A stretch of 64,000 bases of DNA from Qipengyuania sp. ABI-127-1. GTDB taxonomy: Bacteria > Pseudomonadota > Alphaproteobacteria > Sphingomonadales > Sphingomonadaceae. The stretch covers positions 496,001 to 560,000 of the forward strand of contig JALJCR010000001.1 in assembly GCA_022953095.1 (NCBI GenBank), written 5' to 3'. The notes beneath the pieces are model-generated. The model saw only the letters and a list, made by a program, of their open reading frames with translations. It made no database searches and was not told the origin of the DNA. Of this stretch, positions 41,409 to 64,000 are shown piece by piece; positions within the stretch are counted from its first letter, which is position 1, and every line of letters starts with the position of its first letter. Position numbers and translations under genes: made by a program.

Positions 41409-41962
41409 GCCCTTCACGGCGTCGGCTGGCCATCGACCATGTGCAGGAGGCATTGGATATCTGCCAGCGCCGTGCCTGCCGGGTCGTTGCCCAGCACCGC
41501 TCGACCCAGCGCAAGCTGCCCGCACCACCAGCCGACGAGAAGCCGCTGACAGCTGCAATCATCCGGCTGGCCCAGCAATATGGTCGCTACGGCTATCGCC
41601 GGATCACGGCGCTGCTGCGCAATGAAAGTTGGTTGGTGAACGCCAAGCGGGTCGAGCGGATCTGGCGCCGTGAAGGGCTCAAGGTTCCGCAGAGACAGCC
41701 AAAGCGCGGGCGTCTGTGGTTCAACGATGGATCATGCGTGAGGCTGCGTCCGCAATATAGTGGCCATGTGTGGAGCTACGACTTCGTCATGGATCGCACC
41801 CATGACGGCAAGGCCTTCCGCATGCTTACCGTGATCGACGAGTACAGCCGCCAGTGCCTGGCGATCCATGTCCAGCGCAAGCTCAAGAGCGATGATGTCC
41901 TGGCCGTGCTGACCGAGCTGTTCCAACGCCATGGTCCGCCTGATCACATCCGTAGCGATAAC
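41408..41962 (+). pseudogene. IS3-family transposase OrfB, N-terminal part
   Basis: Reads SRRRLAIDHVQEALDICQRR onward with YGRYGYRRITALL and the rve integrase core (VWSYDFVMDRTHDGKAFRML with the first catalytic Asp of the DDE triad; then DHIRSDN with the second Asp). The frame is cut at codon AAC (41960-41962), exactly where GGC GCT GAG TTC (GAEF) should follow; that codon run resumes at 43622. Interrupted by the IS110 element. Confidence 0.85.
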
Positions 41963-42009
41963 GTCCTAGGTCGGGAAGCAGCTGTGGGAAAAGGCCAGCA
42001 GGTCTCGTT

Positions 42010-42029
42010 GCGCCGATCATGATCGGCGC
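42010..42029. repeat. Perfect 20-bp palindrome in IS110 3' flank
   Basis: The palindrome GCGCCGATCATGATCGGCGC lies in the non-coding DNA downstream of the IS110 transposase gene. A strong hairpin on either strand; may end the transposase transcript or be part of the element's structural RNA. Confidence 0.6.
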
Positions 42030-42175
42030 TAATTTCTTTTTGATCCAGATGGCTTCCATCGTCAAGGAATGCGCTCTCGGCCATAGCAAACACAGGATCC
42101 AGCGGCCGCATCGGTCGTGGTCCTAACCGTCCTTAAAATGAGATGCGGATGCCAGATGGAAGGCCCGAACATTAT

Positions 42176-43468
42176 CTACAGGGTCGCAGTTGCGCCCTCA
42201 CGGCACAGCAGAGAGGGGTCCTTCCATCTGGTGTCCGCCCGTTCAAGGAACGGGCGGTACTCGGTTCCCGTCTTGATGACGGCGTGCGCGACGCGCGCCA
42301 TCTTGGCGGTGAGTGCAGTCATTGCCTTGCGGCGGCGATCAGGGTCGCTGGCGTGTCCTTCCATGTATCGACCCAGCTTATCGCGAAAGCTGTTGTCGCG
42401 TTGGCGAGCGGCAACTTGTGCGGCCATCCAGAAAGTGCGGCGCAACCGAGCATTGCCATACTTGGAAAGCTTGGTCCGACCGCGGAATGTGCCGGACTGG
42501 CAGGTGGCCAGATCGAGCCCGCAGAACTTGAGGAACTGGCGATGGTGGGCAAACCGTCGAAGGTCCCCGGCCTCGGCGAGGATGGTCAGCGCGTTGATGG
42601 GACCGATGCCAGGGATCATACGAAGCAGCTGGTAGTCACGGTTCTCGCTGAGCATGGCATGGGCGGTTCGCTCGATCTCGTCGCGTTGGCGGATCAGACT
42701 GCGCGCTTGCGCGATGACCATGCGAAACATGACAATCGCCACGGAATCCTCGTCGACCGGCAGTGCGACCGATGCGCAGGCGGTCTCGTAAATATCGTTG
42801 ATTAATCGAGCCTTGGAGACCTTGCGGCCGACCAGTGACCACGCCTCGCTCGTGAATGCTTCCTGGCCAAGCGCTGTCATGCTCGCGGGCGTCGGAAACC
42901 GCTCGAGCAAGGCAAGAAACCAATCAGACCTGCTGTTGCCGGCGAAGCGCTCGATCTCTGGGAAGTAGAGCGGCAGGTAATGGGTCAGGATCCGGTGCCA
43001 GGTCTGGGTCTTGGCCTTGGAGATGGCCTCGTGTGTCTTCGACATCTCCTGCAGATCGTTAATCCCGGCGGCAAGCGGATCGACGTACCGCTGGGTGGCG
43101 CCAATCCGCAGCATATGCAGGATCACCTGCGCGTCCTTGGAGTCGTTCTTGTCCCAGCCATTATGTAGAGCCTCTCGGGTCCGGGCCAGGGCCACGGAGG
43201 AGATCAGGCGCAGCTCGAATCCTGCTGTGAGCAAGCGGTGCGCCAAGGTGCGGTGATAGTTACCGGTCGCCTCGAAGCCGACGACAATCGGTCTGCCAAT
43301 ATCAGCCAGATCGGACGCAAGGCGGTCGTAATCGGTCTTCGTCGCCATCACTGTCATACGCCGTCGCCGCCCGCCCTCCGGGCGTTCGATGAGTACCTCC
43401 TGGCGGTGCTTGGACATATCGATGGCTACCAGCACGGCATCGGCGGGTGTAGAACTGAGCTTGGTCAT
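42176..43468 (-). CDS. IS110-family DEDD transposase
   Basis: 430 residues from the ATG at 43468 ([20 protein letters not shown]). RuvC-like DEDD domain: Asp in VAIDMSKH, Glu in [10 protein letters not shown], Asp in NDSKDAQ. The C-terminal transposase_20 domain has [20 protein letters not shown] and the serine region [19 protein letters not shown]110 transposases are recombinases guided by a bridge RNA encoded in the element's non-coding end. Confidence 0.95.
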
Positions 43469-43621
43469 GGTCGGTCTGTCTCCAAAGTGTTGAGTCGACA
43501 ACTTCACTTTAGAGACCTGATGACCGGTCATGACCGCCTTGATGAAGCCTGCGGGCGCTACGCGCCCTTGTCTCCATCAAGGCGAGCACTGCCTTCGATA
43601 GGCAGCTTTCCAATGTGCTAT
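43469..43621 (-). ncRNA. Candidate bridge RNA region of the IS110 element
   Basis: Non-coding end upstream of the transposase. Read on the minus strand (written here by plus-strand positions) it folds into CTGCCT-TCGAT-AGGCAG (43589-43605) and a larger stem GCCTTGATG (43536-43544) with CATCAAGGC (43575-43583) enclosing GGGCGC-TAC-GCGCCC (43553-43567). The order, stem-loop followed by a stem with internal loops, is what a bridge RNA requires. I could not match guide loops to the target by eye. Confidence 0.45.
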
Positions 43622-55879: not shown

Positions 55880-56080
55880 AAGAACTATTCCTTCTACATC
55901 TCAGGCCTGATCGGCCTTCAGTCATCCTTAAGGGAGACATCTCGTGCAGTCAATAAATCGTATACTCTTTTAGTCCCTTGCAGACACCAATCCCATCGGA
56001 TAGTGTGCCGATCCAACGAAGGTTTGCTAATATCCTTATACTTTTTATTCGAGAGGTGCGGGTGTGCTGATGAGTGGCGG
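55880..56080. promoter_or_regulatory. Divergent promoter region of the catabolic locus
   Basis: 201 bp between the P450 gene (minus) and the GntR regulator (plus). It is AT-richer than its neighbours and has no gene on either strand. No confident operator palindrome could be identified. Confidence 0.5.
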
Positions 56081-56809
56081 ATGTCAGCGGTGAAGAAGGC
56101 CAAGCGTGCCCTTTCTCTTGCGCAAAGCATCGTGCGGGACATCGAGGCGGGTCGCCATAACCCGGGTGACAGGCTTCCGCGCGAGGATGAAATGCTCGCG
56201 CGTTACGAGGTTGCGCGCGCAACTTTGCGGGAGGCTTTGCGGTTCCTGGAATTGCAAGGGGTCATCCATCTCCAGCTCGGCCGTGGTGGAGGTCCCGTCG
56301 TAGCCCGTCCGCAGACCGGCGATTTTGCAAGCAGTTTGTCATTGATTCTGCATTTCATGGAAGCCGATTTGCGTGGTTTGCTTGAATTGCGCGAAGCAAT
56401 TGCTCCCGATGTCGCAGGGTATGCAGCCCAGCGTGCAACTACCGCTGATCTCAGCGCGTTGGCAGGGTGTCTGGCGGAATTGAGGCATCATGAAGCCTCT
56501 GATCAATTCGAGGAACTTAATCGCAGATTTCACGACTTGTTGGGTTGGGCGAGCGGCAATCCGCTGTTCGGTTTGCTGACCTCTGCGATGCATCTGTTGA
56601 CCCGCGAGTTTTCCCATTCGCTGGGATATTCGGCACAGGAACGGGCGGTGCAGATGAAGTTTCTGGTGCGGGTGCTCGAGGCAGTGCGGACTGGCGACAG
56701 CGCCGCGGCCCGTCAAGCAATGAGCCGGTTGGTGGCCGGCTCTGCCGTCTATCTTTCGGAGCGCAGCCCCGAGCTGGTCTCGCAGCGGGTGCGGTGGGGG
56801 CAGCTGTAG
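56081..56809 (+). CDS. GntR/FadR-family transcriptional regulator
   Basis: 242 residues from the ATG at 56081. N-terminal GntR winged helix: AQSIVRDIEAGRHNPGDRLP, REDEMLARYEVARATLREAL, LQGVIHLQLGRGGGPVV. C-terminal FCD domain (LLELREAIAPDVAGYAAQRA, LNRRFHDLLGWASGNPLFGL). FCD-type regulators respond to acyl-CoA or organic acids. Position between two divergent catabolic gene sets makes it the likely local regulator. Confidence 0.92.
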   Translation: MSAVKKAKRALSLAQSIVRDIEAGRHNPGDRLPREDEMLARYEVARATLREALRFLELQGVIHLQLGRGGGPVVARPQTGDFASSLSLILHFMEADLRGLLELREAIAPDVAGYAAQRATTADLSALAGCLAELRHHEASDQFEELNRRFHDLLGWASGNPLFGLLTSAMHLLTREFSHSLGYSAQERAVQMKFLVRVLEAVRTGDSAAARQAMSRLVAGSAVYLSERSPELVSQRVRWGQL

Positions 56810-56859: not shown

Positions 56860-58002
56860 ATGGCGTTGAAGAGCCGAATATGCGAAATGCTGGGGATCCG
56901 GTACCCGATCCTGCTTGCCGGGATGGGCGGAGCGAGCGTTCCGGCGCTGGCGGCTGCGGTTTCGAATGCCGGCGGGCTCGGGGTCCTGGGTGCCGCGGCG
57001 TGTTCGCCCGATCAGTTGCGTGACTGGATTCGCCAGACCCGGGAATTGACCGACAAACCTTTCGGTGTCGATACGCTGCTCCCCGCGTCGGTCAGGCGCG
57101 GCTCTGCCCCTCAAAGCGGTGCTGCACCCCAAAATCCCATGGATCTGATGGGTGAATATCAGCAGTTCGCGCGCGACTTCATGGATCGTGAAGAGCTTCC
57201 GGAGGTCGATGCTGCCGCCGCCATGCGGGCGGCGGGCGCGCCTGAAATGGGCAAGGGCGGCCCGCAGTTGTTCTCGAAGGAATTCTTTGAGGCGCAGATG
57301 GAAGTGGTGATCGAGGAAAAGGTGCCGGTTTATGCTGCCGGCCTTGGCAATCCTGAACCGTGGATGGATCGGCTCCATGCCAATGGCACCAAGGTCATGG
57401 CGGTGATCGGCAAGGTCAAGCACGCCGAACAGGTCGTCGGGTCGGGCATCGACATGATCGTCGCGCAAGGGCACGATGGCGGAGGTCACAACTCGCCGAT
57501 CGGGACTATTTCCTTGATTCCCCAGGTGGTCGACGCCGTTGGCGATCGTGTTCCTGTCCTTGGGGCCGGCGGTATCTCGGATGGCCGGGGTGTTGCCGCT
57601 GCGATGATGCTGGGGGCAGAGGGCGCGTGGGTCGGCACGGCATTTCTCGCGACCGAGGAAGCGGGCATCGAGCGCTTCCAGAAAGAGGCGATCACCGAAA
57701 GCGGCGATGCCGATACGGTCGTTAGTCGATCGCTTACCGGCAAACCGGCGCGCATGATCCGTAACAAATGGGCCGACGCCTGGGTGCAGGCCGGAAAGGA
57801 GCCTCTGCCGATGCCCTATCAGTCGATGATCTCCGGCCCGGTCATGGCCTCCGGGATCAAGGCAGAGCGCAAGGATGTCATCCCCGGCTTCGCGGGGCAA
57901 GGCATCGGCCTGATCGATTCGATCCGGCCTGCCGCCGAAGTGATGCGCGACCTGGTCGATGGAGCCGAGAAGGCGTTGGCGTCCGCTGGTATCTACAAGT
58001 GA
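56860..58002 (+). CDS. Nitronate monooxygenase-like flavoprotein (NMO family)
   Basis: 380 residues. FMN TIM-barrel features: ICEMLGIRYPILLAGMGGAS at the start, GHDGGGHNSPIGTISLIPQV with the catalytic-type His, and GAGGISDGRGVAAAMMLGAE binding FMN phosphate. SD GAGAGGAAG. In steroid degradation clusters, proteins of this family (Rv3553-like) occur next to the ACAD and thiolase genes; the real reaction may be a 2-enoyl-CoA reduction rather than nitronate oxidation. Confidence 0.85.
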   Translation: MALKSRICEMLGIRYPILLAGMGGASVPALAAAVSNAGGLGVLGAAACSPDQLRDWIRQTRELTDKPFGVDTLLPASVRRGSAPQSGAAPQNPMDLMGEYQQFARDFMDREELPEVDAAAAMRAAGAPEMGKGGPQLFSKEFFEAQMEVVIEEKVPVYAAGLGNPEPWMDRLHANGTKVMAVIGKVKHAEQVVGSGIDMIVAQGHDGGGHNSPIGTISLIPQVVDAVGDRVPVLGAGGISDGRGVAAAMMLGAEGAWVGTAFLATEEAGIERFQKEAITESGDADTVVSRSLTGKPARMIRNKWADAWVQAGKEPLPMPYQSMISGPVMASGIKAERKDVIPGFAGQGIGLIDSIRPAAEVMRDLVDGAEKALASAGIYK

Positions 58003-58082
58003 AGCGCAGGAGGCAAGAAGATGGCTTACGCCAAAGGTCATGAATTGCGCCGCCCCGTAGAGCCTCTCAGAGCGCTGGGGCA

Positions 58083-58775
58083 ATGAGGCAGTTGATTGCC
58101 GACAAGGAGGATACGGCGCAGGTGTTCCGTATCGTCAAGGCATTGTCGGGCAATTCCTATTATCGGAATTTCAATCGCTTCATGAAGTCGAGCGATGGGC
58201 GGCGTATCGCTTCCGACCGGGCCGACCTACTTGAAACCTTGTGCGATCGCAAACGCCTTGCGACCTGTGCGTCTGGCACGCTTGGCCGAGCCTACCTCGA
58301 TTTTGTTTACGGGGAGGGTCTGACAGCAGAAGGTCTGGCGGAAGCCAGCGAGGCCGGAGGTCTGGAGGACCTCGGCGACCCCGATGTTTCCCTCTATCGT
58401 CGGCGCCTTCGCGATTCGCATGACCTGTTTCATGACGTCGCCGGATACGGCAGGGACGCACTGGGCGAATTGTGCGTGCTGTCCTTCGGAAACGCGCAAT
58501 TCTATAATCACGGGATCGCTTTCATCTTGGGCGTCGGCATTCCCAAGATGAAACTGGAAGCTGCCCAGTTGCCAGTGGCGCGCGCTGCATTTGAAGCGTG
58601 GCGCCGGGGCCGGGCTGCAGCCGATCTGACCACCTTCTACTGGGAAGAAAATCTCGATCGTCCGTTGGAGGATGTCCGCCGCGAGTTGCGACTGCGTCCG
58701 CCGGAGACCTATCAGAGGGTGCGCGCTCTTTCCGAACAGCTCGAACGCGATTACCAGGCGGTCAGGCAGGCATGA
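58083..58775 (+). CDS. Coq4-family protein
   Basis: 230 residues. The Coq4 metal motif is intact: [20 protein letters not shown] (HDxxHD). Start [15 protein letters not shown] at 58083. Immediately upstream in a different frame, MAYAKGHELRRPVEPLRALG (58021-58083) ends at a TGA overlapping the ATG (CAATGAGG); homologues, as remembered, carry an N terminus like this, so a frameshift may have split the gene. Coq4 acts in ubiquinone ring modification; its place inside a catabolic cluster is unexpected. Stop overlaps the thiolase start by 4 nt. Confidence 0.85.
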
Positions 58776-59944
58776 GCTTAAGCGACAAATCGGCCATCAC
58801 CGGAGTGGGCGAAACCGCTTTCGTGAAAGGCACCGAGAAAACCGCGGTCGACATGATGCTGGAAGCATCGCGCAAAGCCATAGCAGATGCAGGGCTGAAG
58901 CCGTCGGATATCGACGGCATGGTTCCTCCGCCGATCTACACCACCTCGGAAGAGATGGCGGCTAACCTCGGTATCGAAGTTCTGCGCTATGCCTCTACGG
59001 TCCACATGGGCGGGGCGAGCCCTACCACGGCACTCCAGAACGCCGCGATGGCAATTGCCAGCGGCTTATGCGACCATGTGCTGGTGACGCTCGGGTGGAA
59101 CGGTTATTCCGCCTTGCGGCCCAAGCCTGGCGCACCGCCGACGCGGCCGATGAACATGAACACCCTGACGAATACGATCCAAGGCTATTACATTCCGTAT
59201 GGCGTGTTCCTGCCGGTGCAGATGTATGCCTGGCTCGCCACCCGGCACTCCCGAATTTACGATATCGGCCCGGAAGCGATGGCGGCCGTTGCACTGGCGT
59301 GCCGTCGCCATGCGCAGATGAATCCGCAGGCCTTCACTTATGGCCGGGAACTGGATGCCGAAACCTACCATTCCGCGCGCTGGATATCCGAACCCTTTCG
59401 CCTCTACGATTGCTGTCTGGAGACTGACGGGGCATGCGCAGTCGTGGTTTCGCGAATAGACCGCGCCAGGGACATGCCGCATGTTCCCGTGAGCATCGCC
59501 GGTGCGGCTGAAGGGCATCCTTACCCCGCCGACGATATCCCTTCGCGTCCCGACCCCTTCAAGATCGGCCTGAGCTACGCCGCGCCGCGCGCGTTCGAAA
59601 TGGCGGGGGTCGATCGCGAAGACATGGATTTTCTGCAGATCTACGACTGCTTCACCTACGTGGTTCTCCTTCAGCTGGAGGCCCTGGGCTATTGCGAACC
59701 AGGTGGACAGGCAGAGTTCGTCGCGAATGGCCAGATCGAGCTGGGCGGGCGCTATCCCGTCAACACCCATGGCGGCCTGCTGAGCGAGGCCCATGTTTGG
59801 GGACTGAACCATGTCGTCGAGGCGGTGCGTCAGTTGCGCCACGATTGTGGGGAGCGGCAGGTCGAAGGCGCCCAGACCGGCCTGGTGACCGGCTGGGGCG
59901 ATCTGGGTGACGGCAGTATAGCGATTTTGAGGAGGTTTGCGTGA
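58772..59944 (+). CDS. Thiolase-like acetyltransferase/aldolase (SCP-x/Ltp2 type)
   Basis: 390 residues from the ATG at 58772, coupled to coq4. Thiolase-fold family: [40 protein letters not shown], and [20 protein letters not shown] with the C-terminal His. It is followed at once by a DUF35 gene; thiolase-like/DUF35 pairs act as retro-aldolases in steroid side-chain cleavage (Ltp2-type) or as acyltransferases. The N-terminal active-site Cys position is not obvious, which supports the aldolase alternative. Confidence 0.85.
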
Positions 59945-60417
59945 GCGACGAGAAAGATCTGCCGCCCAAGATGCGCCCCTCGGCGCAGGCCGCACCAGCC
60001 AAGCCAAAGCCGCGCCCGCAGGATCCGGTGGAGCAGGAATTCTGGAACCGGTGTCAGGACGGCAACCTTTACTTCCAGCAGTGCGAAGGATGCGGCAGTT
60101 TTCGGCATTTGCCGCGCTATATGTGCGCCCGATGCGGTTCTCCTGAATGGTCGTGGGAGCGTAGCACCGGCAATGGCACGCTGTTTTCCTGGACGGTGAC
60201 CCATCAGGCACTGCATCCCGCCTTCGCCGGCGAGATTCCCTTCATCGCTGCGGTGGTGGAACTGGAGGAGGGAGTGCGCATGGCAACCCGGCTGGTCGAT
60301 TGCGCGCTCGACGAGCTTGAGCTCGATCTGCCGGTCACGCTGGATTTCGAGCCGATCTCCGAAGATTTTCGCCTGCCAGTATTCCGACCCGTCGCGATCG
60401 CGCGCGCAGAAGGATAG
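59941..60417 (+). CDS. DUF35 (Zn-ribbon/OB-fold) protein, partner of the thiolase-like enzyme
   Basis: 158 residues. Zn-ribbon [20 protein letters not shown], then the OB-fold: [40 protein letters not shown]. Overlaps the thiolase-like gene by 4 nt. DUF35 proteins scaffold thiolase-like enzymes and hand over acyl-CoA. Confidence 0.9.
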
Positions 60418-60423
60418 ACCAAG

Positions 60424-61674
60424 ATGGATCTCGACTACGGACCCCAGTATGACGCGTTTCGCGAGGAAGTGCGCCAGTTCCTGCAAACCCACGGTCACCG
60501 CGCACCCGATGGCCAAGGCCGTGCCGCGCGCCCTTCCCCCGAAGCCGTCGAATGGCAAAAGCTGTTGATCCTGCATGGTTACACGGCGCGTACGATTCCC
60601 AAGGAATACGGCGGATACGGAGCCGAACCGGACATCCTGAAATCGCGGATCATTGCCGAGGAATTTTCGCGCGCTGGCATCCCCGCAGGCCTTGCGAACC
60701 AGGGCATTTCCATGCTCGTTCCCACGCTGCTGGAACTCGGAACCGAAGCCCAGAAACGGCAATGGATCGAGCCGACCCTAAATGGCGAGATAGTCTGGTG
60801 TCAGGGATATTCGGAACCTGGAGCGGGATCGGACCTCGCCGCGCTCAAGACCAGCGCCCGCGTCGAAAATGGCGACTTTGTCATCAACGGACAGAAGATC
60901 TGGACCAGCACGGCCAAGCAGGCGGACATGATCTTTTGCCTTGTTCGGACCGAACCGGACGCGCCCAAGCACGGCGGCATCTCCTACTTGATCTTCTCGA
61001 TGGACACACCAGGGATCGAGGTCCGACCACTCAAGACCATGACCGGTCATGCCGAGTTCAATGAAACGTTCTTTACCGACGTGCGGGTTCCCCTGGATCA
61101 GATCGTCGGGCAGCGCGGGCAGGGGTGGTACGTGGCCAATGCCACACTGGGCCATGAACGTGGCATGCTGGGCGACCCCGATGCACTGGAAAACCGGCTC
61201 CAGGCGCTGGTCAGGCTGATGCAAAAAGAACGCATCGGCCAGGGTTGCGCAATGGACAACGCCGTTCTGCGTGACCGGCTGGTTGCATTGCAAGCCGAAG
61301 TCGCGGCGATGAAATTCAACGGCATGCGCATCCTGTCGAACAGCCTTAGGGGGGATGCCGGCGGCATGGCGAAACTTGTCGTGAAGCTGCAGAGCTGTGA
61401 GCTCGCCCATCAGATTTCCGCGCTCGCGATCGACGCAATGGGCGAGATGGGCATACTCTATCACGGAAGCGAGCGCGAGCGCGAAGACGGTGCCTGGCAG
61501 TGGAACTACATGTTCCAGCTTGGTCTGATCATCGGTGGAGGCACCGCCCAGATCCAGAAGAACATCATCGCCGAACGCGGGCTGGAAATGCCGCGCGAAC
61601 CCAAGTTCGCAACGCCTCCCGCCGTCGAACAGGCGACGGCCGTTGCAAGCGGGCAGAATAAGGGAGCCGCCTGA
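60424..61674 (+). CDS. Acyl-CoA dehydrogenase, long subunit type
   Basis: 416 residues. GYSEPGAGSDLAALKTSARV, NGQKIWTSTAKQADMIFCLV, and GGGTAQIQKNIIAERGLEMP at the end, as in the FadE28/ChsE-type long subunits. Its stop touches the start of the next ACAD gene, so they form a pair like the one at 51.9-54.2 kb. Confidence 0.92.
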   Translation: MDLDYGPQYDAFREEVRQFLQTHGHRAPDGQGRAARPSPEAVEWQKLLILHGYTARTIPKEYGGYGAEPDILKSRIIAEEFSRAGIPAGLANQGISMLVPTLLELGTEAQKRQWIEPTLNGEIVWCQGYSEPGAGSDLAALKTSARVENGDFVINGQKIWTSTAKQADMIFCLVRTEPDAPKHGGISYLIFSMDTPGIEVRPLKTMTGHAEFNETFFTDVRVPLDQIVGQRGQGWYVANATLGHERGMLGDPDALENRLQALVRLMQKERIGQGCAMDNAVLRDRLVALQAEVAAMKFNGMRILSNSLRGDAGGMAKLVVKLQSCELAHQISALAIDAMGEMGILYHGSEREREDGAWQWNYMFQLGLIIGGGTAQIQKNIIAERGLEMPREPKFATPPAVEQATAVASGQNKGAA

Positions 61675-62765
61675 TGGATTTCGGACTTTCGCAAGACCAA
61701 GAGATGCTCTGCGACGCGATCAGCCGCACTCTTGCTGATACTTGTCCGCTCGATCATGTGCGCGAATGCGCGGAGGGCTCGGTTCCCTTCAGCGACAACG
61801 TGCGTTCGGCGCTGGGCGAAATCGGCATTTGGGGAATGATGGTTCCCGAGCAACATGACGGGCTCGGGATGACAATGCTCGATGCCGCCGCTGTGGCCGA
61901 GCAGCTCGGCTATGCCGTCGCGCCGGTGCCTTTTATCGGTGCCCATGTACTGGCACCCCTTGCGCTGGCACAGGGCGGTAGCGAGGAGTTGAAGGCGCAC
62001 TGGCTGCCGAGGATAGCGAAGGGCGAGGCGCAAATCGCCGTCGCGATCGCGGAAACGGTGGAGATCCGGGACCGGGCAGGCGTGGACTTCGACGGCGCAA
62101 AGCTCGACGGAACGGCTTTGTTCGCGCTCGACTTCCTGGAAGCCGACGCGTTTCTGGTAGCCGATACCGCCGGTCGTATGCACTTCGTAGCTGGCGATGC
62201 TGCGGGTCTGGAGAAGGTTGCTCTCAAAACGATCGACCGCACCCGGAGCGTAGGGGAGCTGCGGTTTTCTGGCGTAGCGGGCGAGGCTCTCGCGGACGAT
62301 GGTGGGGCCACAGTCAGGCGCCTGCGGGACGCCGGCCGGGTGCTCCTGGCCGCCGATAGCCTCGGTGCGGGCCAGGCTATGATCGAAAAAGCGGTCGACT
62401 ATGCCGGGCAGCGCGAACAGTTCGGACGAGTGATCGGCAGCTTCCAGGCGGTCAAGCATATGTGCGCGGAAATGGCTGCCCGCCATGAACCATGCCGTTC
62501 GCTGGTCTGGTATGCCGCCCATGCGTTCGATGCGACGCCCGACGAGGCTTCGCTGGTGGCATGCCATGCCAAATCACATACGGGCGAAGTCCACCGTTTT
62601 GTCGCCCGAACCTCAACCGAGGTGCATGGGGGGATGGGTTTTACCGATCTCCTAGGTCTGCATTTCTGGTTCAAGCGAATCGGTTTCGACCGCCAGGTTC
62701 TGGGAAGTCCCGAAGCGGTCCGGGCCGAAGCAGCGGCCTTGCAGGGGTGGACGCAGGTCGCATGA
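61674..62765 (+). CDS. Acyl-CoA dehydrogenase, short subunit type
   Basis: 363 residues, start ATGGATTTCGG overlapping the preceding stop. IWGMMVPEQHDGLGMTMLDA and the C-terminal TSTEVHGGMGFTDLLGLHFW. Second member of a paired ACAD set. Compared with the catalytic subunit it lacks the IQKNIIAER-type FAD-tail motif, typical of the partner subunits. Confidence 0.9.
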   Translation: MDFGLSQDQEMLCDAISRTLADTCPLDHVRECAEGSVPFSDNVRSALGEIGIWGMMVPEQHDGLGMTMLDAAAVAEQLGYAVAPVPFIGAHVLAPLALAQGGSEELKAHWLPRIAKGEAQIAVAIAETVEIRDRAGVDFDGAKLDGTALFALDFLEADAFLVADTAGRMHFVAGDAAGLEKVALKTIDRTRSVGELRFSGVAGEALADDGGATVRRLRDAGRVLLAADSLGAGQAMIEKAVDYAGQREQFGRVIGSFQAVKHMCAEMAARHEPCRSLVWYAAHAFDATPDEASLVACHAKSHTGEVHRFVARTSTEVHGGMGFTDLLGLHFWFKRIGFDRQVLGSPEAVRAEAAALQGWTQVA

Positions 62766-62828: not shown

Positions 62829-64000
62829 GTGATCGACTGGAACCTTGGCGACATCCTTGATGCAATCGAACCTGCGGTCCCGGAAGATGCTCCGGCGCTG
62901 ATTCACGGCGACCGGATCATTAGCTGGCCCGAAATGTCGAAGCGTTCGAACAATTTGGCGCGCAATCTGCGCGCGCAAGGTGCAGGCGACGGGGCGAAGA
63001 TAGCCTTCTACATGCGCAACCGTTCCGAATACGGGGAATTGATGGCCGCGTGCTTCAAGGGCCGCCTCACGCACGTGAACATCAATTATCGTTACCGTCC
63101 CGAGGAGGTTTTCTACATCTTCGACGATTCCGATAGCGAGGTAATTGTTTACAGTTCCGAGTTCCGCGACTGCATTCTTGAACTGAAGGAACGGTTGACC
63201 AAGGTTCATACATTTGTAGAAATCGGCGATGCTTCGCAGATCGCTTCCTTCGCGCTTCCTTACGAAAAACTTGTAGAAGGTAACGGCGCGCCTCTCGATA
63301 TCGAGCGTTCTCCGGATGACCTGCTGTTCATATATACAGGCGGTACCACCGGCATGCCCAAGGGCGTGATGTGGCGACACGATGATATGCGCAAGGCTCA
63401 GCTCGACGCGCAAAAGCTGCTGGGTCCGGTTCCCCAGACCATGGAGGAAATGGTGGCCCTGGTGAAGCAGGGCGAGCTTGCGCGCATCACTTTGCCGGCG
63501 TGCCCGCTGATGCATGGAACCGGGTTCATTACTGCTATTGGCACGCTCATGTCGGGCGGGGCCATCGTCACGCTGTCCGATCCATCCTTCGACGCGGAAG
63601 AATTGTGGGATGCGGTGGACCAGCACAAGGTGCAGAGCATCGCCATTGTCGGTGACGCTTTTGCCAAACCCATGCTGCAGGCGCTGGACGCCCACCCGAA
63701 GCGCTGGGACACGAGCAGCCTGATTTCGATCATCTCGTCCGGCGTCATGTGGAGTAAACAGGTAAAGGCGGGCCTGTGCAAACATATCCCCCAGGTCATC
63801 CTCATGGACAGTTTTGGCGCTTCGGAAGGGCTGGGCTACGGCTTGTCGGTGACGACCGCACAGGGCGGCACCAACACCGCGAAATTCGGGATCGGGGAAT
63901 TTTGCGACGTATTCGACGAGAACGACCGGAAGGTCGAGGCGGGGAGCGGCGTGCCCGGCTTTATTGCCCGCAAGGGCGCAATCCCCACAGGATACTACAA
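62829..64000 (+). CDS. Acyl-CoA synthetase (FadD19-like), 3' end outside window
   Basis: GTG start at 62829 with SD AGAGGA (VIDWNLGDILDAIEPAVPED at the N terminus); about 390 residues are visible before the window ends. AMP-binding motif YTGGTTGMPKGVMWRHDDMR, then LMHGTGFITAIGTL and DSFGASEGLGYG. From memory, the order and wording match M. tuberculosis FadD19, a steroid-side-chain CoA ligase (including GVMWRHED- and RGxIAxKGxIPxGYY-type segments). Probably activates the carboxylate formed after CYP153 oxidation; substrate undetermined. Confidence 0.9.
   Translation, partial: MIDWNLGDILDAIEPAVPEDAPALIHGDRIISWPEMSKRSNNLARNLRAQGAGDGAKIAFYMRNRSEYGELMAACFKGRLTHVNINYRYRPEEVFYIFDDSDSEVIVYSSEFRDCILELKERLTKVHTFVEIGDASQIASFALPYEKLVEGNGAPLDIERSPDDLLFIYTGGTTGMPKGVMWRHDDMRKAQLDAQKLLGPVPQTMEEMVALVKQGELARITLPACPLMHGTGFITAIGTLMSGGAIVTLSDPSFDAEELWDAVDQHKVQSIAIVGDAFAKPMLQALDAHPKRWDTSSLISIISSGVMWSKQVKAGLCKHIPQVILMDSFGASEGLGYGLSVTTAQGGTNTAKFGIGEFCDVFDENDRKVEAGSGVPGFIARKGAIPTGYY

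Follow-up and report, generated by a model that had tools for sequence, protein, structure and literature searches.

We interpret the Coq4-like gene in a catabolic cluster of Qipengyuania sp. ABI-127-1 as a frameshift allele of a Coq4 paralogue that belongs to CYP153/acyl-CoA gene clusters. Coupled restart of translation would yield a truncated product of 230 amino acids; the allele has spread on a transferred block, and its function is probably impaired and weakly constrained. We put the probability of this reading at roughly 70%. The analysis centres on a 64,000-nucleotide stretch of the genome (the window; Table 1).

Table 1 Features in and around the Coq4-like gene, in window numbering
Feature	Position	Strand	Remarks
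Near-identical transferred block	39001–64000		Continues to about 76877 (L075:12877), 12.9 kb past the window
CYP153 cytochrome P450	54617–55879	−	Best PDB match CYP153A7, 3rwl, E = 5e-186
GntR/FCD regulator (ORF as listed)	56003–56809	+	
Nitronate monooxygenase-family gene	56860–58002	+	Upstream of coq4
Leader ORF, 21 codons and TGA	58021–58086	+	Ancestral Coq4-like N terminus, now in another frame; in-frame equivalents in L064, L105 and L050
GGGG run	58077–58080	+	One G more in intact L064 and L105 (site 58080.5)
Coq4-like frame, 230 amino acids	58083–58775	+	Starts at an internal Met (Met22 of the 251-residue intact protein)
Metal motif H113-D-L-F-H117-(x)11-E129	58419–58469	+	HD-xx-H-(x)11-E, as in PMC7615680
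D118 to A120	58434–58442	+	D118 and A120 in place of V/I and T/S of 30 other aligned sequences
Thiolase-like gene	58772–59944	+	Start overlaps the coq4 stop (ATGA); 'transporter' in plasmid annotations
ChsH2-type zinc ribbon/OB-fold protein	59941–60417	+	
Acyl-CoA dehydrogenase 1	60424–61674	+	
Acyl-CoA dehydrogenase 2	61674–62765	+	
AMP-dependent acyl-CoA synthetase	62829–64000	+	Extends past the window end

A displaced N terminus

An ATG at 58021, with AGGAGG before it, opens a leader of 21 sense codons that ends in a TGA (58084–58086), and this stop overlaps the start of the Coq4-like frame as ATGA. The initial annotation had noticed the leader and the overlap, both of which are real, but had counted 20 codons. 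It had also likened the peptide to the usual N terminus of Coq4 and proposed a frameshift. Homologues with the same gene order bear out both points and place the difference at one base. In Sphingopyxis indica (L064), genome G303 (L105) and Pacificimonas aurantium (L050), the Coq4-like protein is intact, with 251 amino acids each, and reads through the leader in frame, with the N terminus MAYAKGHELRRPV. The leader is not a chance reading frame, since members of the family have this peptide as their N terminus. L064 and L105 hold the closest intact alleles, in which a fifth G extends the GGGG run of the window; L050 differs more from the window around this run and is likewise one base longer.

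The in-frame N terminus is also recognizable in more distant records of Parasphingorhabdus, Henriciella, Hyphomonas, Sphingopyxis and Novosphingobium, and on two plasmids. Homologues thus start 21 codons earlier than the ATG at 58083, which the initial annotation had considered as their possible common start. We rejected an earlier start in the Coq4 frame of the window, as the 13 codons open 5′ of 58083 contain no ATG, GTG or TTG, just an ATT right after the stop. The one-base frameshift in this accessory Coq4-family gene is real. A frameshift and a coupled upstream peptide had been offered as alternatives; they are not exclusive, and by sequence the locus combines both.

Spread on a transferred block

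Of 25 assemblies whose coq4 exceeds 92% protein identity, 22 carry the 21-codon leader and the uninterrupted 230-residue frame (17 collection loci, L033–L049, and genomes G000, G042, G059, G131 and G156) and three are intact; an assembly fetched twice (same contig position) was counted once. The frameshift copies comprise nine distinct coq4 alleles, and intact and frameshifted alleles are 97–98% identical. The named carriers include Qipengyuania, Parapontixanthobacter, Pelagerythrobacter and Actirhodobacter, all of which are Erythrobacteraceae in the NCBI taxonomy.

The gene lies in a block of about 38 kb that, compared in 1-kb steps with pieces of 400 bases or less dropped, is 99.9–100% identical per kb to G016 and 99.8–100% identical to G032, which belong to two other species. 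The DNA before the block is 84.4–98.4% identical in the same comparison, and no match was found beyond about 76877 in the stretches taken from the compared genomes. G003 shares the block less perfectly (94.7–100%), with a dip to 98.5% at 58001–59000, the stretch that holds coq4. Over 10.7 kb around coq4 (pieces of 150 bases or less dropped), 16 of the 17 collection loci are 99.4–100% identical to the window, and the intact locus of S. indica (Sphingopyxidaceae) still reaches 99.1%; the seventeenth collection locus, L048, is 99.5% identical over 8.2 kb. This near-identity of DNA shows that one block moved recently among relatives. Because the block is near-identical and recently transferred, the 22 copies represent one spreading allele, not independent conservation, which is a caution that an odd frame conserved across many species can stem from a single recent transfer. 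All four combinations of frame status with a K/R variant in the leader occur, so either recombination or repeated deletion is needed. Sites in the variant comparison around the frameshift were defined without L050 and L106.

The right end of the block is sharp, and the flanks differ in G000, G016, G032 and G003. No integrase was recognized among the block proteins scanned (part of the block), no tRNA gene near the block in the window or L075, and no match of at least 12 bases between the ends tried (43620 and 76870; the left end was later placed at about 39000). The block also carries efflux, MlaD and catabolic genes. Two further genes within it deserve mention. An ABC1/UbiB-type atypical kinase (PF03109; 44120–45721, minus strand) is a second relative of a ubiquinone-pathway family, and an IS110-family transposase (42176–43531, minus strand) sits in a stretch of about 1.66 kb (41961–43620) that is missing from G016 and G032.

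A Coq4-family protein with altered residues beside the metal motif

The 230-residue product matches Pfam Coq4 (PF05019) at 73.7 bits, against a cut-off of 22.9. The initial annotation had described the metal motif as intact, which holds for the ligands (H113, D114, H117 and E129 are all kept) but not for the flanking residues. In an alignment that took in 31 of 38 Coq4 proteins, the 30 other rows have V (27) or I (3) at site 118 and T (26) or S (4) at site 120. The HDVAGY of the window therefore departs from the pattern H-[VI]-x-[TS]-G-Y that begins at the second His, a difference that concerns the intactness of the allele and not its descent. V118D occurs in 10 of the 22 frameshift copies, including the window, and V118 is kept in 12; T120A occurs in 13 of the 22.

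We modelled the intact S. indica protein with AlphaFold. One of five models is confident (pLDDT 91.5, pTM 0.89; the next reaches 60.8), and it matches the solved Coq4 folds 6e12 and 3msq with E values of 1.4e-6 to 1.8e-6. The best match is Alr8543 of Nostoc (PDB 6E12; E = 1.4e-6, TM 0.71/0.83), which is 21% identical in sequence and whose entry names bound oleic acid and magnesium (6E12 title; PMC9774615). Helix 1 spans residues 15–27 of the intact model, and residues 11–20 have a mean pLDDT of 93. The product of the window starts inside this helix and thus lacks a complete helix 1 (RP..A....R.L..DKEDT), again a matter of allele intactness and not of descent.

COQ4 has been shown to be a Zn-dependent C1 decarboxylase of CoQ biosynthesis in a reconstructed animal system (PMC7615680). 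The window gene resembles it in the Pfam match and the HD-xx-H-(x)11-E motif, and the intact S. indica model has the Coq4 fold. It is unlike COQ4 in its catabolic setting, in the absence of 21 N-terminal residues from its product and in carrying D118 and A120.

Selection on the frameshift background

Changes unique to the frameshift background number 7 nonsynonymous to 4 synonymous, compared with 18 to 57 among the three intact alleles (Fisher P = 0.012) and 4 to 15 between L064 and L105 alone (P = 0.047); without constraint, a ratio of 2.25:1 is expected. An excess of nonsynonymous changes among young variants is seen in the rest of the cluster too (37:42 within the spreading block, 247:730 to L050). 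The contrast between coq4 and these genes is not significant (P = 0.26; z = 1.07 for the difference of log odds ratios), although coq4 has about twice their density of variant sites. Given the raised ratios of its neighbours, we rejected relaxed selection as proof of decay, and the test for relaxed constraint is only suggestive. No further stop or frameshift was found in the coq4 frame of any of the 22 copies.

Impairment of Coq4 function in the frameshift allele is likely, although not proven. We infer impairment and weak constraint from the changes beside the metal motif and from sister clusters in which the gene is lost or missing (see below), and the gene is probably being lost, not acquiring a new role. 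The leading competitor, which we regard as unlikely, is that the 230-residue protein retains full function, the leader and the stop–start overlap serving as a coupled translation signal and the 21 N-terminal residues being dispensable. The uninterrupted frames, the retained metal ligands and the similarity of the coq4 ratio to that of its neighbours within the block all agree with full function, as does the next junction (coq4/thiolase, at 58772), which is also an ATGA overlap. Dispensability sits poorly with an N-terminal segment modelled with such confidence, with V118D and T120A next to the motif, and with the 7:4 ratio on the frameshift background.

Translation of the frameshift allele

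Returning to the truncated, probably impaired product, we propose the following course of events. By comparison with the closest intact alleles, a GGGGG run would have shrunk to GGGG; this deletion would have separated the first 21 codons from the rest of the frame, so that their TGA came to overlap an internal ATG. Ribosomes may then load at the strong Shine–Dalgarno sequence of the leader, terminate at the TGA and restart at the overlapping ATG, giving a protein that, as read from the frame, is missing the N-terminal tail together with the first half of helix 1 and is presumably damaged by this. Translation as far as the overlapping thiolase start would be preserved, and the deletion therefore need not be polar; the allele may serve as an example of how a one-base deletion can stay non-polar in an overlapping operon. 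The allele subsequently spread among Erythrobacteraceae on the block of about 38 kb, as the near-identical DNA shows.

The sequence elements expected of termination–reinitiation coupling are present: an overlapping stop and start, a strong upstream Shine–Dalgarno sequence and a weaker one at the second start. Duplex energies are −10.3 kcal/mol for the ATG at 58021 versus −4.7 kcal/mol for that at 58083, with a median of −3.1 kcal/mol for 270 plus-strand ATGs. The Shine–Dalgarno sequence of the second start, far weaker than that of the leader, is still better than those of roughly three in four plus-strand ATGs tested. Termination–reinitiation would thus be the simplest route to a Coq4 product.

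Programmed −1 frameshifting or transcriptional slippage, restoring the full-length protein, is very improbable. It would draw on the G run at the deletion site and on a downstream stem-loop (z = −2.16), but the run is just four long and no heptamer allows re-pairing in both sites (after G GGG CAA, the A-site codon would become GCA). Moreover, intact L105 is identical to the window over the stem-loop sequence (58083–58204); this structure therefore did not evolve in response to the frameshift. With GGGGCAA failing at the A site and the stem-loop common to an intact allele, we rejected a programmed frameshift.

A role for the 21-residue peptide as a selected regulatory leader in its own right is slightly less credible still. 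Across the compared frameshift copies (L048 left out), the leader varies in L049 alone, with two synonymous changes and one K/R change, as selection might produce; these changes are too few to show selection, the variants may predate the deletion, and in relatives the intact protein begins with this peptide. A sequencing or assembly error, which a one-base change in a G run might suggest, was rejected as extremely unlikely, the same arrangement being present in 22 assemblies that, by their record titles, come from many different projects, with some assemblies sharing a project.

A cluster-borne clade of Coq4 proteins

The setting of the gene in a catabolic cluster, proposed in the initial annotation, is confirmed by its CYP153, thiolase, acyl-CoA dehydrogenase and acyl-CoA synthetase neighbours. 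Because the cluster includes a CYP153, the substrate of the pathway may be a hydrocarbon or lipid-like. Past the window, the next genes encode a flavin oxidoreductase (Pyr_redox_2, with an FMO-like score of 27.5 bits against a cut-off of 22), a set of MFS, HlyD and outer-membrane efflux proteins, and an MlaD protein. Plasmids pF2 of Sphingobium yanoikuyae and pSfKp5.2 of Sphingopyxis fribergensis have the gene order of the window (FCD regulator, nitronate monooxygenase, Coq4, thiolase, OB-fold protein, two acyl-CoA dehydrogenases and ligase), with a divergent P450 and a 2Fe-2S protein. Their Coq4-like gene differs from that of the window in being uninterrupted, with 265 amino acids and 57–58% identity.

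The genome also holds a second Coq4 (G000:C1:1793429-1794070; L093:8357-9187; Pfam Coq4 55.8 bits), the absence of which the initial annotation had named as a point against its reading. This protein has the same metal motif as the window gene but is 36% identical to it, has its N terminus in frame and is placed apart from it in the tree, alongside other copies from its GTDB family (f1). The window gene itself falls within a clade of cluster-borne Coq4 proteins (13 rows; support 98/94). In several relatives, G033 (G033:C4:99929-102122), G043, G011 and G034 among them, two Coq4 genes lie about 1.5 kb apart.

This clade is of more interest than the frameshift allele. A tentative possibility, which we hold to be less probable than its negation, is that the intact clade forms a catabolic branch of Coq4, distinct from ubiquinone synthesis, that uses a metal to decarboxylate or present a lipid-like intermediate in the CYP153/acyl-CoA pathway; the window would then hold a naturally broken or trimmed version that is still spreading. 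Given that COQ4 is a C1 decarboxylase and that oleic acid is named as bound in the Alr8543 entry, an accessory role of the intact gene in decarboxylation or in the handling of lipid acids would be a fair guess, and no more than that. Should the clade prove catabolic, the chemistry of Coq4 would extend beyond ubiquinone, and the naturally occurring pair of an intact and a frameshifted allele would be ready material for probing helix 1 and V118/T120. We found no title on a Coq4 in a catabolic cluster in the open-licence literature searched.

Clusters with and without coq4

In an order-wide draw of 396 genomes, the nitronate monooxygenase was matched at E = 1e-120 or better at 25 loci in 24 genomes. 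Full-length coq4 is present at 14 of these loci (seven frameshifted and seven in frame, judged from gap length), a remnant at one, and no coq4 match at ten. A class-wide draw of 385 genomes added seven further genomes that pass the same threshold with a less close match, with coq4 adjoining in one and no coq4 match in six. The cluster thiolase was recognized in none of these seven, within short loci that extend just about 1.5 kb past the match; they may therefore be different clusters.

Absent from 10 of 25 comparable loci and reduced to a remnant at another, coq4 is at most accessory in the cluster. The initial annotation suggested that a degradative step may have recruited a ubiquinone-pathway protein. 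This idea is in keeping with the setting of the clade; it is weakened by these losses and by the possible decay of the gene in the window.

The remnant, in Qipengyuania sphaerica (L073/L135; L073:4997-5067), is a frame of 31 codons running from the leader start to a stop 7 bases short of the thiolase ATG, the deletion having spared the leader start and the last codons. G131 has, besides its frameshift copy, a second nitronate monooxygenase–thiolase junction without coq4 (L151, C1:1962739-1963875). The Blastomonas plasmid pBSY18_1 carries the cluster without coq4, and an AarF/UbiB-family gene lies about 4.4 kb from that coq4-less cluster.
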